Shown piece after piece: positions 5,385-8,650 of a stretch of 64,000 bases of DNA. The DNA lies in the NCBI RefSeq assembly GCF_900172275.1, contig NZ_FWFT01000002.1, positions 682,001-746,000 on the forward strand, read 5' to 3'. The position numbers were made by a program, and so were the translations under genes. The notes under the pieces are model-generated. The model was not told where the DNA came from. It did no database searches and saw nothing but the letters and a program-made list of their open reading frames with translations. The DNA is from Pseudooctadecabacter jejudonensis. Lineage in GTDB: Bacteria > Pseudomonadota > Alphaproteobacteria > Rhodobacterales > Rhodobacteraceae. How positions within the stretch are numbered: position 1 is the stretch's first letter; the number at the start of each line of letters is the position of its first letter.

Positions 5385-6038
5385 CTATGGGGTCGTCTGG
5401 ACTGTCGCTATTGTATCGGCCAGAAGGCGCGCGATTGTTGCGGATCCCTTGAGGGAGGGGTGGATTCGATCCTCATCATAGAATGAGATATCCATCGGAT
5501 CGATAACCTCATCGACGGACAAGAAGGTCACATTCGGGATCTGGGCCACCCGCGTTGCCAAGGTTTCGAAATAGGGCACACACCCGCTGAATTCGTTTCC
5601 CCCAACGGGTGGTTTTGCATAGCCAAGAAAGACGACATGCGTGCCATCGGTGGTGACGTCGTTCAGGAACTGACCAAGTTCTCCGCCACCGCTCTCGGTT
5701 ATCAATACCTCAACCTCTTGCGCGCATGTCTGCGCGCACCCGCACGCTTCCCCAAGGTCATTCCCACCACCTGTCATAACCAGAATATCGGGCCGGTCGG
5801 CTCCAAGTTGCTTGCGGATATCAAAGCCCCGCAATCCGCCCCAGAACCCGGTGCTGACCTCTGCGCCAGAAACAGCCCTGTTCTCCACCGGACGGTTCAA
5901 TTCGCGTGACAGAATTGCTGGAATGGATGCGTCTTCATTCCACGCCAGAATGCTGTCACCGACCGCAATTATGGATTGCGCCGCACCATGTGACGGCAAG
6001 ATGAGAGAGAGGCAGGTGAGGATGCTTCTCAAAAACAC
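5385..6038 (-). CDS. Secreted SGNH/GDSL-type hydrolase
   Basis: A 217-residue exported esterase or lipase of the SGNH fold. A signal peptide covers about residues 1-20 (ending SHGAAQS). The catalytic blocks are readable: GDSILAW (Ser nucleophile) at about 27-33, a GG in the second block, GGNDLG (Asn of the oxyanion hole), and the Asp/His block DRIHPS near the C terminus. Several cysteines (GCAQTC and two others) could form disulfides in the periplasm. It sits 27 bases downstream of a small membrane-protein gene on the same strand, so the two probably form an operon. A short hairpin (ATAGTC/GACTAT, 5372-5388) overlaps the stop codon but has no T-run. The substrate is unknown. Confidence 0.85.
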   Translation of the reverse strand: MFLRSILTCLSLILPSHGAAQSIIAVGDSILAWNEDASIPAILSRELNRPVENRAVSGAEVSTGFWGGLRGFDIRKQLGADRPDILVMTGGGNDLGEACGCAQTCAQEVEVLITESGGGELGQFLNDVTTDGTHVVFLGYAKPPVGGNEFSGCVPYFETLATRVAQIPNVTFLSVDEVIDPMDISFYDEDRIHPSLKGSATIARLLADTIATVQTTP

Positions 6039-6065: not shown

Positions 6066-6605
6066 CTACGCTGCTGCGGTTGCGGCGGCGTACCCAAAGT
6101 AGTTCAGGACTGTGACGACACCCCAAAACGTGCCAAAGACGATGCCCACATTGCGGCCGTGCCGTGTCACTCTGGGATGATGCCCCAGCCCCGAAAGACC
6201 GGCATGATTGGCGTTCACCAGCACAAAGAGGGCTGCCATGATCCCGAGTATGACATGCAAGGTATGGCGATCAGCCAATGGCAACGTCAGCCCATAGAGG
6301 ATGCCAGCGGCCAGAGAAATAAAGGCCAGTGCGCCCTGACGTTGTTCGAACAGCATCACGAAAATATAGTTGGCGCCTGCTGGGGTCTTGTCTGCGGGCG
6401 CGGCTGCGATTGCGGCGTCCAGCATGGCGATTTCGTCATCATGGGTCAGCAGCTTGGACGGGCGCGGCAAACCGGGCCCGAAAAACGGCAGAACCCAGTT
6501 GACCACCCAACGGGCCCAAAGTGGGCGGTAGACTTCGACGGCATGAACAAAGGCCGGAGCAATACAAAGCAAGAGGCCCAGGGTTGAGATCAGGGTATTA
6601 GACAT
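6066..6605 (-). CDS. Uncharacterised membrane protein
   Basis: A 179-residue protein with an N-terminal hydrophobic segment (about 5-24) and at least three more hydrophobic stretches in the second half (about 92-112, 118-138, 150-172), suggesting four membrane helices. A soluble, Ala- and Asp-rich loop of about 60 residues follows the first helix. I do not recognise the family. The start ATG at 6605 is followed directly by the first helix, so a longer N terminus is unlikely. It is upstream of, and on the same strand as, a secreted SGNH hydrolase (27-base gap), which suggests a shared envelope role. About 285 bases upstream of it carry a TetR operator-like repeat. Confidence 0.7.
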   Translation of the reverse strand: MSNTLISTLGLLLCIAPAFVHAVEVYRPLWARWVVNWVLPFFGPGLPRPSKLLTHDDEIAMLDAAIAAAPADKTPAGANYIFVMLFEQRQGALAFISLAAGILYGLTLPLADRHTLHVILGIMAALFVLVNANHAGLSGLGHHPRVTRHGRNVGIVFGTFWGVVTVLNYFGYAAATAAA

Positions 6606-6822
6606 AGGCGGAGGCGTTCTTTCTGTTGGGATGTAAATTAGCAGGTTCCGGTTAAGATTGAGGTCGCCGAACGGGGCGGGTTTACTCTGGGGTCAGGTGC
6701 GCGATGGCGCCTGTCCAGTCCTCTAGGTGGCAGGGCTTGGAGATCCGCCTGCCCTCACTTCTGGCCGCAGTGCTGACACCCGTTCTTTGCGTCTTTGGCA
6801 TGGAGCCCCCCCGCTTGCACGA

Positions 6823-6888
6823 TTTGTTACTGAGTGGTACGAATAAGAAATACACTTCGTCAAGATAAAAATACCACCCAGTAACAAA
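6823..6888. promoter_or_regulatory. 17-base inverted repeat abutting tetR start (candidate operator)
   Basis: TTTGTTACTGAGTGGTA at 6823-6839 and TACCACCCAGTAACAAA at 6872-6888 are reverse complements over 17 bases with one mismatch. They are separated by 32 AT-rich bases, and the second arm ends immediately before the ATG of the TetR-family gene. The arrangement fits two operator copies bound by the adjacent regulator for autoregulation, possibly also controlling the leftward genes. A transcript would instead form a long hairpin hiding the start codon. Confidence 0.65.
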
Positions 6889-7497
6889 ATGAATGATGAC
6901 TCTCCCAAACCCGCGCGCGGTCGACCGCGGAAAATGAATTCCGACGACGTGCTGGATGTCGCCATGACAGCCTATTGGCGCACCGACCCTGCGGATGTGT
7001 CGGTCAACGCGATTTGCCAGATGGCGGGCATCTCCAAACCCTCGCTGTACCGCACATTTGGCAACGAGGACGGACTGATGCGCGCGGCTCTCGACAGCTA
7101 TGCAGAGGGTGTGGTTGCGGACATCTTCGAGATACTGAACGGCGGACGGGGGCTGCGCGGCACGCTTGACGGTCTTGTCGACTTTGCCTGTGTTGACCCG
7201 CGCATGGAAACCGGCTGCCTCTTTTACAAAATGCGGACGGGCAAGCACCGTCTTGGGCCGGAAACACGGGCGCGGGTGGAGGAACTCGACGCGGCGGCGC
7301 AGGCCGCATACTTAGCTTTCTTGCAGTCCTGTCGTGATACCGGAGACTGGACCGACGACTTGTCAATCCAAGCTGGCGCAAAATACCTCAGCGAGCAAAT
7401 CGCGCTTGCCATCACCCAACGGGCCTCTGGCGAGGACCCGGCGCGCATTCGTGAAATGCTGGGCTTCGCATTGTCCGTGTTCAGTCGGCCTAGATAG
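6889..7497 (+). CDS. TetR/AcrR family transcriptional regulator
   Basis: A 202-residue one-component regulator. The N terminus has a basic ARGRPRK stretch (AT-hook-like), then a helix-turn-helix at about 44-66 (recognition part GISKPSLYRTFGN), the TetR signature. The rest is a helical ligand-binding and dimerisation domain with no obvious metal site. The start ATG is fixed by the inverted repeat that ends at the preceding base; there is no Shine-Dalgarno, because the repeat arm occupies the site, so translation may be weak or leaderless. It runs divergently from the membrane-protein/SGNH pair and converges on an esterase gene. The target genes and ligand are unknown. Confidence 0.88.
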   Translation: MNDDSPKPARGRPRKMNSDDVLDVAMTAYWRTDPADVSVNAICQMAGISKPSLYRTFGNEDGLMRAALDSYAEGVVADIFEILNGGRGLRGTLDGLVDFACVDPRMETGCLFYKMRTGKHRLGPETRARVEELDAAAQAAYLAFLQSCRDTGDWTDDLSIQAGAKYLSEQIALAITQRASGEDPARIREMLGFALSVFSRPR

Positions 7498-7621: not shown

Positions 7622-8587
7622 TTACAAATAGGTGTCATAGTACTCAGCGAATGCGTCGGCCTGAAAGGCCATTGCATCCTTTGAGATCGGTGCCTTGGGT
7701 GCAACAGTTTCGAACCCGTGAAAACCACCTTCGTAGAGTTTGAATTTCGTCGGTACACCGGCACGGTCCAATGCATTGATGTAGGCGATCGTCTCATCTT
7801 TGAAAGGTTCCATGTCACCGACAAAGCTGATGGTCGGTGGGTGCCCTGTCAGGTCTTCGCGCAATGCTGGTGATGCGTGATCCGGAACGTTTCCGTTCAG
7901 ATGGCCTAAGTAATTAGTCCACGCCAAAGCGTTGGAGCGACGGTCCCATACAGCGCTTCCGATCATTTCACGGCCCGATTTGGTTTCCATGCGATGGTCA
8001 AGCATCGGATAGATTGGCATCTGAAACGCGATGTGGGCCGCTTTGGCGTCGAGGGTCTTGAGTGTCAAAGCCGCCGCCATGCCGCCGCCGCCGCTATGCC
8101 CGCCGACAATGAACGCATCATCTCGGATGCCCAGATCAGCCGCGTTGTCCTTCATATACATCAAGGTATCGAAGCAATCGTTCAAGCCATGCGGATATGG
8201 GTGACCGTCCAGTGAGAGACGGTAGGCCGGCGCCACGATAACGACATCGCGTCGCGCGATGAGGTCCTGAAAGAAAGGATGCGCTTGTTCCGGCACGCCA
8301 ACCTGATAACCGCCGCCATGGGCATAGATCATTGCAGGCAGAGGGCCTGTCACGCCTTTGGGTTTGTAGACGCGGGCGCGAATTTTATGGCCGGGCGTCG
8401 GGACGCTTGGAATGAAGATTTCGTCATTGGCCAGACCTTTGATTTGATTGCCAACCATGGGCTTCATCCCAAACCGTTGCATCATGCGCAGGCCCCAGTT
8501 CCGCCTGGCGATCCACGTCACGATCCGCCCCGCGAAATAAGCTGACTGCAAGTCCTTGTGATACATTGCGCGTCTGAGGCGGGTCAT
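7622..8587 (-). CDS. Alpha/beta hydrolase, HSL-type esterase/lipase
   Basis: A 321-residue cytosolic esterase of the hormone-sensitive-lipase (bacterial family IV) type. YAHGGGYQVG carries the HGGG oxyanion motif, GHSGGGG the nucleophile Ser, EPFKDE the Asp region and GGFHGFE the catalytic His. The start is set at the ATG at 8587 because AGGAG lies about 10 bases upstream; an in-frame ATG at 8626 would add 13 residues but has no ribosome site. An AraC-type regulator gene lies upstream on the same strand, 63 bases away, and is its likely controller. The natural ester substrate cannot be predicted. Confidence 0.88.
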   Translation of the reverse strand: MTRLRRAMYHKDLQSAYFAGRIVTWIARRNWGLRMMQRFGMKPMVGNQIKGLANDEIFIPSVPTPGHKIRARVYKPKGVTGPLPAMIYAHGGGYQVGVPEQAHPFFQDLIARRDVVIVAPAYRLSLDGHPYPHGLNDCFDTLMYMKDNAADLGIRDDAFIVGGHSGGGGMAAALTLKTLDAKAAHIAFQMPIYPMLDHRMETKSGREMIGSAVWDRRSNALAWTNYLGHLNGNVPDHASPALREDLTGHPPTISFVGDMEPFKDETIAYINALDRAGVPTKFKLYEGGFHGFETVAPKAPISKDAMAFQADAFAEYYDTYL

Positions 8588-8650
8588 GGTGGGGATGCTC
8601 CTGTCATGTGAATTTGCTAGGGGCAAATCTAGAAAGGATGTGGCGGTTTC

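Follow-up and report, generated by a model that had tools for sequence, protein, structure and literature searches.

Immediately upstream of a TetR-family gene of Pseudooctadecabacter jejudonensis, two 17-nt sequences face each other as an inverted repeat, and the question raised by this locus is whether the repeat functions as DNA, in the form of a double operator, or as RNA, in the form of a stem that blocks translation of the regulator. Both readings had been put forward in an earlier note on this DNA, in which autoregulation was the expected outcome of either. The locus lies in a 64,000-nucleotide stretch of the genome, hereafter the window, in whose coordinates the elements of the repeat region are the following:

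6823..6839, no strand assigned: left arm of the inverted repeat, 17 nt
6872..6888, no strand assigned: right arm of the inverted repeat, 17 nt
6828..6839, no strand assigned: putative operator O1, TACTGAGTGGTA, with 7 of the 8 core bases of TACC-N4-GGTA
6872..6883, no strand assigned: putative operator O2, TACCACCCAGTA, with 7 of the 8 core bases of TACC-N4-GGTA
6889..7497, plus strand: tetR gene, 202 aa, with a TetR_N domain (PF00440, residues 22-67, E 4.6e-7, 30 bits against a cut-off of 24)

The inverted repeat and the palindromes within its arms

The inverted repeat that the earlier note had described as abutting the tetR start codon with a single mismatch is real. Its arms are complementary at 16 of 17 bases (94%) and lie 32 nt apart, and the last base of the right arm, 6888, directly precedes the tetR ATG, which begins at 6889. 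No other pair of 17-nt sequences in the 64 kb window reaches 16 matches when gaps of up to 100 nt are considered. When the 64 kb were shuffled 20 times with dinucleotides preserved, one shuffle contained such a pair, and 60 shuffles of the 295 nt around the repeat gave at best 14 of 17. When up to three mismatches are allowed, the arm sequence has two matches in the window, which are the two arms themselves, against 0.02 expected.

An additional layer becomes visible in the relatives of this gene. A scan of genome contigs returned 36 loci encoding proteins 61-80% identical to the window protein, 35 of them with the gene start (L062, in which the start is missing, was left out). For the aligned proteins from named genomes, identity to the window protein is 64-80%. 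Each arm contains a palindrome of its own, with the consensus TACC-RNNY-GGTA, and this is the part that the relatives have kept. O1 and O2 are both present, with at least seven of the eight core bases each, in all 35 full-length relatives from named genomes, and the R and Y of the consensus fit the 35 at O1 as well as at O2; core scores of 7 or 8 occur elsewhere in the same loci at about 8e-5 per position. A palindromic operator beside its own gene, as is looked for in the TetR family, would thus be represented here by two sites, and this in every one of the 35 relatives. The window carries one core mismatch in each site and therefore neither of its copies equals the consensus. In a 33-row alignment of the window and 32 of the 35 relatives, from which L041, L053 and L061 were kept out because their spacers have other lengths (43, 43 and 57), core cells are paired within their own site in 98.5% of cases at O1 and 92.4% at O2. 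The rest of the arms varies, with 8 to 15 of 17 positions matching in the 28 relatives that have all 17 positions comparable and the start correctly placed. The conservation of the arms in close relatives, whose absence the earlier note had counted against its reading, consequently holds for the TACC-N4-GGTA cores and not for the remaining arm positions. Any palindrome that occurs twice will pair with its second copy through the core, which is why the arms have the look of one long inverted repeat; where the window copy matches beyond this, at its centre and flanks, chance is partly responsible.

The position of the two sites is also conserved. O1 and O2 are separated by 44 bp (start to start) in the window and by 45 (26 loci), 44 (5), 43 (3) or 57 bp (1) in the 35 relatives, while O2 ends five bases before the tetR ATG in the window and five (27), four (6) or six (2) bases before the first codon in the relatives. 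These counts are not all independent, L041 and L053 being near-identical in the operator region and the whole-genome loci L064-L071 and L084, whose contigs have the lengths of those of named loci, appearing to duplicate these. In whole genomes, a family search at E 1e-20 or better matched 21 of 295 genomes and gave 23 places including the window's own. At 16 of the 22 others a pair scoring 14-16 of 16 is present, against a control maximum of 12 in 600 stretches, and all 13 places with at least 46% identity are among these 16. The six remaining places, all with at most 36% identity, have a pair score not above control, which suggests that the operator is changed or lost in distant homologues; two distant members that pass the pair score have a spacing of 38 bp.

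RNA stem versus paired operators

In the RNA reading, the tetR leader would fold through both arms and hide the start codon, resulting in translational autocontrol. The window copy indeed folds well, its strand reaching -21.7 kcal/mol (z -2.98) with none of 200 shuffles as good, and the predicted folds of 32 relatives contain at least 8 arm-arm pairs in 15 cases and at least 12 in 11. However, arm-arm pairs are absent from the predicted fold in 16 of the 32, and RNAalifold keeps the O1 self-palindrome alone and no long stem. Covariation gives a similarly divided picture. The long-stem score is 0.134 compared with 0.110 in shuffles (reached by 7 of 500), long-stem cells are paired in 76.5% of cases versus 75.1% with partners shuffled between loci (reached by 19 of 500), and at five flanking positions pairing is slightly better within loci than between them (p 0.038). 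The four central positions carry no such signal (p 0.45; p 0.16 when repeated on all 35 loci), two central columns lack pairing in 27 and 19 of the 33 rows, and pairs with both partners changed are about as frequent as in shuffles (5 versus 4.9). Moreover, kinship among the rows can lift scores above shuffles of this kind without any structure, and the signal at the flanks would be explained by shared ancestry or by both operators matching one protein. A conserved stem with compensatory changes, the mark of a translational attenuator, was therefore not found, although weak covariation at the flanks remains. The feature kept by the relatives is core pairing inside the individual arms rather than the long stem, and the stem was rejected as the main reading of the repeat; we consider it very unlikely. 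Because a pair of palindromic operators always resembles one long stem, the choice between the two readings of such a hairpin-like sequence is settled by comparison rather than by folding, and the comparison favours the double operator, with both palindrome cores in 35 of 35 relatives.

The ribosome-site region, which the earlier note had described as occupied by the second arm, is not a Shine-Dalgarno site: GGAG, GAGG or AGGA is present within 20 nt upstream of none of the 36 starts, window included. The DNA between the two sites contains conserved promoter-like blocks:

6867..6872, plus strand: putative tetR -10, AAAAAT in the window, a conserved block in the alignment
6858..6863, minus strand: putative -35 TTGACG of a divergent promoter; all 33 aligned rows have GTCAA here, which is TTGAC on the opposite strand

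The first block reads TAAAAT in most aligned relatives and ends on the first base of O2. If TAAAAT is the tetR -10, the leader would be about 10 nt long and the left arm would lie outside the tetR transcript, which also argues against the stem. On the other strand, the divergent -10 (TACCAC) would sit at 6834-6839, inside O1. O1 is thus predicted to overlap the -10 region of a minus-strand promoter and O2 the tetR transcription start. Although the blocks fit a placement of the operators over both promoters, a consensus scan of 6550-6950 passed no sigma-70-type promoter, and the proposed overlap is therefore drawn from conservation.

The same blocks bear on whether the entire 66 bp could be one extended composite operator, bound as a unit by two contacting dimers. 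That 34 of the 35 relatives have a spacing of 43-45 bp would suit such an arrangement, but the conserved blocks CGTCAAG and TAAAAT lie within the 32-33 bp between the sites and explain a fixed spacing without any contact between proteins, and the spacing is 57 bp in one relative and 38 bp in two distant ones. We regard a composite operator as extremely improbable. In addition, 44-45 bp corresponds to 4.2-4.3 helical turns at 10.5 bp per turn, which is not a whole number, and co-operative binding on one face of the DNA is thus not implied.

The repeat is therefore very probably a pair of separate operators for the adjoining TetR-family protein, serving autorepression as well as divergent control. 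In the proposed mechanism, one repressor dimer would bind each TACC-N4-GGTA palindrome. At O2, which would cover both the transcription and the translation start of tetR, this would lead to self-repression, while at O1, over the divergent promoter, it would block the neighbouring operon; a small-molecule ligand would then release the repressor. That the protein binds and represses, that the promoters lie where proposed and that a ligand acts as inducer are inferences from the sequence. Autoregulation, the outcome expected by the earlier note, is accordingly likely but not the whole story, control of the divergent operon being equally part of it.

The divergent operon and its deletion

In the relatives, the operators separate tetR from an operon on the opposite strand. 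Its first gene is a full-length SDR gene in 17 of the 35 relatives, starting about 90 nt from tetR, and SnoaL-like or cupin genes follow it in many of them. In the window genome, the following is found on this side of tetR:

6682..6801, minus strand: deletion scar of 39 codons, in which the first codons of the SDR gene are fused to the last codons of the SnoaL-like gene
6066..6605, minus strand: the gene of the divergent operon that has survived, 179 aa, without a match in Pfam

The window genome has lost by deletion the SDR and SnoaL genes that lie divergently in relatives, and the 39-codon reading frame that remains is MPKTQRTGVSTAARSEGRRISKPCHLEDWTGAIAHLTPE. Both ends of the deletion can be recognised: window positions 6758-6888 match the SDR start and the intergenic DNA of relatives (72% over 134 nt, E 2e-12, with L032), and positions 6665-6733 match the 3' end of the SnoaL-like gene (83% over 70 nt, E 6e-14, with L031). 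The scar lies 87 nt from tetR and the next intact divergent gene 283 nt away. Homologues of the surviving gene 6066-6605 occur further along in 10 of the 35 relatives, with one additional partial match, and come after the SDR, SnoaL and cupin genes. No SDR orthologue was found elsewhere in the window's own genome (the best of 16 matches has 37% identity), and the SnoaL-like gene has no match there at E 0.001, which taken alone is weak evidence. The locus is thus an example of a regulator kept after the loss of most of its operon.

Partial SDR genes are also present in L028, L031, L040 and L043 (by tblastn), and a start-only remnant in L055 (by eye). The remnant frames of L028 (43 aa) and L040 (99 aa) end like the full SDR protein (GGADA), which suggests in-frame internal deletions. 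Read jointly, these cases could mean that the switch, regulator and paired operators alike, persists beyond the loss of what it controls. Internal deletions would have cut the SDR gene repeatedly in separate lineages, sparing its start, and the operators, the regulator and the tail genes would have been retained; we put this forward tentatively and think it rather doubtful. If true, it would imply that the SDR is harmful or useless once transferred and that selection maintains the switch, be it for the tail gene 6066-6605 or for a short leader reading frame.

The surroundings of the block vary as well. A gene for a DUF418 membrane protein lies 3' of tetR, at +683 to +689 from the tetR start, in 15 of the 35 relatives (L028, L032, L037, L040-L042, L044, L048, L049, L051 and L053-L056, with a fragment only in L035). 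The window has no DUF418 gene after tetR; the next gene is an alpha/beta-hydrolase gene on the opposite strand (7622-8626). On the other side, a GDSL-type lipase gene (5385-6038, minus strand) begins 27 nt past 6066-6605 and may share its transcript. Homologues of this lipase gene were not found by tblastn at any of the 35 loci of relatives, so that it probably belongs to the host DNA outside the acquired block.

Specificity, origin and known counterparts

Whether the regulator also acts elsewhere can be approached through the arm sequence, and the genome-wide search that the earlier note had suggested as a route to a regulon came back without one. Within the window's own genome, the exact arm core occurs only twice, at the two arms. 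Looser patterns did not rise above control: the arm core TTACTGRGTGGTA with up to two mismatches gave 26 matches, fewer than the 81 of its backward control, and TACCRNNYGGTA gave 3 sites versus 26 for the control, two of them within open reading frames, one between frames and none paired. Of the 295 family genomes, 10 carry the exact paired pattern, at 11 places in total, and every one of these lies 4-10 bases from a tetR match; the backward control pattern was matched once. The window pair falls outside this exact pattern because its O1 reads TACT. Given that the paired pattern occurs exclusively beside tetR and that the own-genome searches do not exceed control, the switch appears to be local. 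On contig C11 (L003), a one-mismatch site stands single, outside the adjoining large frame.

These distributions also weigh on the idea that the arms are the ends of a recombination or mobile element, or a site for another DNA-binding protein. Among 19 genomes of the genus, tetR occurs in the window's genome alone, as does the neighbour gene 6066-6605, for which reason the block containing both was probably acquired horizontally and is of outside origin, as mobility would lead one to expect. Nevertheless, the arm pair flanks nothing, it has a constant location and spacing in front of a single gene family, and the exact core is absent from the rest of the genome, which leaves this explanation with hardly any probability. 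Several of the contig loci, L041, L061 and L062 among them, come from metagenome bins labelled Nitriliruptoraceae, Bryobacteraceae or Saprospiraceae, which may reflect mis-binning or transfer.

A pair of operators for the regulator's own gene and a divergent target has well-known counterparts, and by analogy steric autorepression of the tet type combined with divergent control, as in Tn10 TetR and CifR, is the most likely mode of action. As with O1 and O2 of Tn10 tet, two palindromic sites lie between a TetR-family gene and its divergent target, although the tet operator sequence differs from TACC-N4-GGTA. The target in Tn10 is an efflux pump, whereas here it would be a metabolic operon, mostly deleted in the window genome. 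In Tn10, the two palindromic operators of tetR and tetA overlap the promoters of the regulator and its divergent target and control both genes (PMC3037858).

The nearest solved structure by sequence is CifR of Pseudomonas aeruginosa (6nsn, E 2.9e-8, residues 6-89). The resemblance is confined to the N-terminal region of the window protein. CifR reportedly uses two binding sites, to go by the title of a 2012 study by Ballok et al. It is described as a divergent repressor of an enzyme operon (PMC8244358). Family searches of the window neighbours and eight genes of relatives returned SDR, SnoaL, cupin, DUF418, GDSL and alpha/beta-hydrolase-3 families and one gene without a family, but no cif epoxide hydrolase, morB or transporter gene, and with this operon missing the window protein was not taken as a CifR orthologue. 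In Streptomyces, TetR-family genes located less than 200 bp from a divergent neighbour usually repress that neighbour (PMC3511530). Searches on CifR sites, double-operator TetR proteins, Rhodobacterales TetR regulons and SDR/SnoaL/DUF418 genes, judged mostly by titles and the beginnings of abstracts, yielded general precedents and no paper recognisably on this TetR group. The general type of switch is already well known, and the window case adds a member to it. For a TetR-family group that is uncharacterised and occurs mainly in Rhodobacteraceae-type genomes, it supplies an operator consensus as well as a target that can be tested. As a further observation on the protein itself, residue C110 of a GCL motif is invariant among 23 aligned TetR proteins and could be a redox or electrophile sensor.
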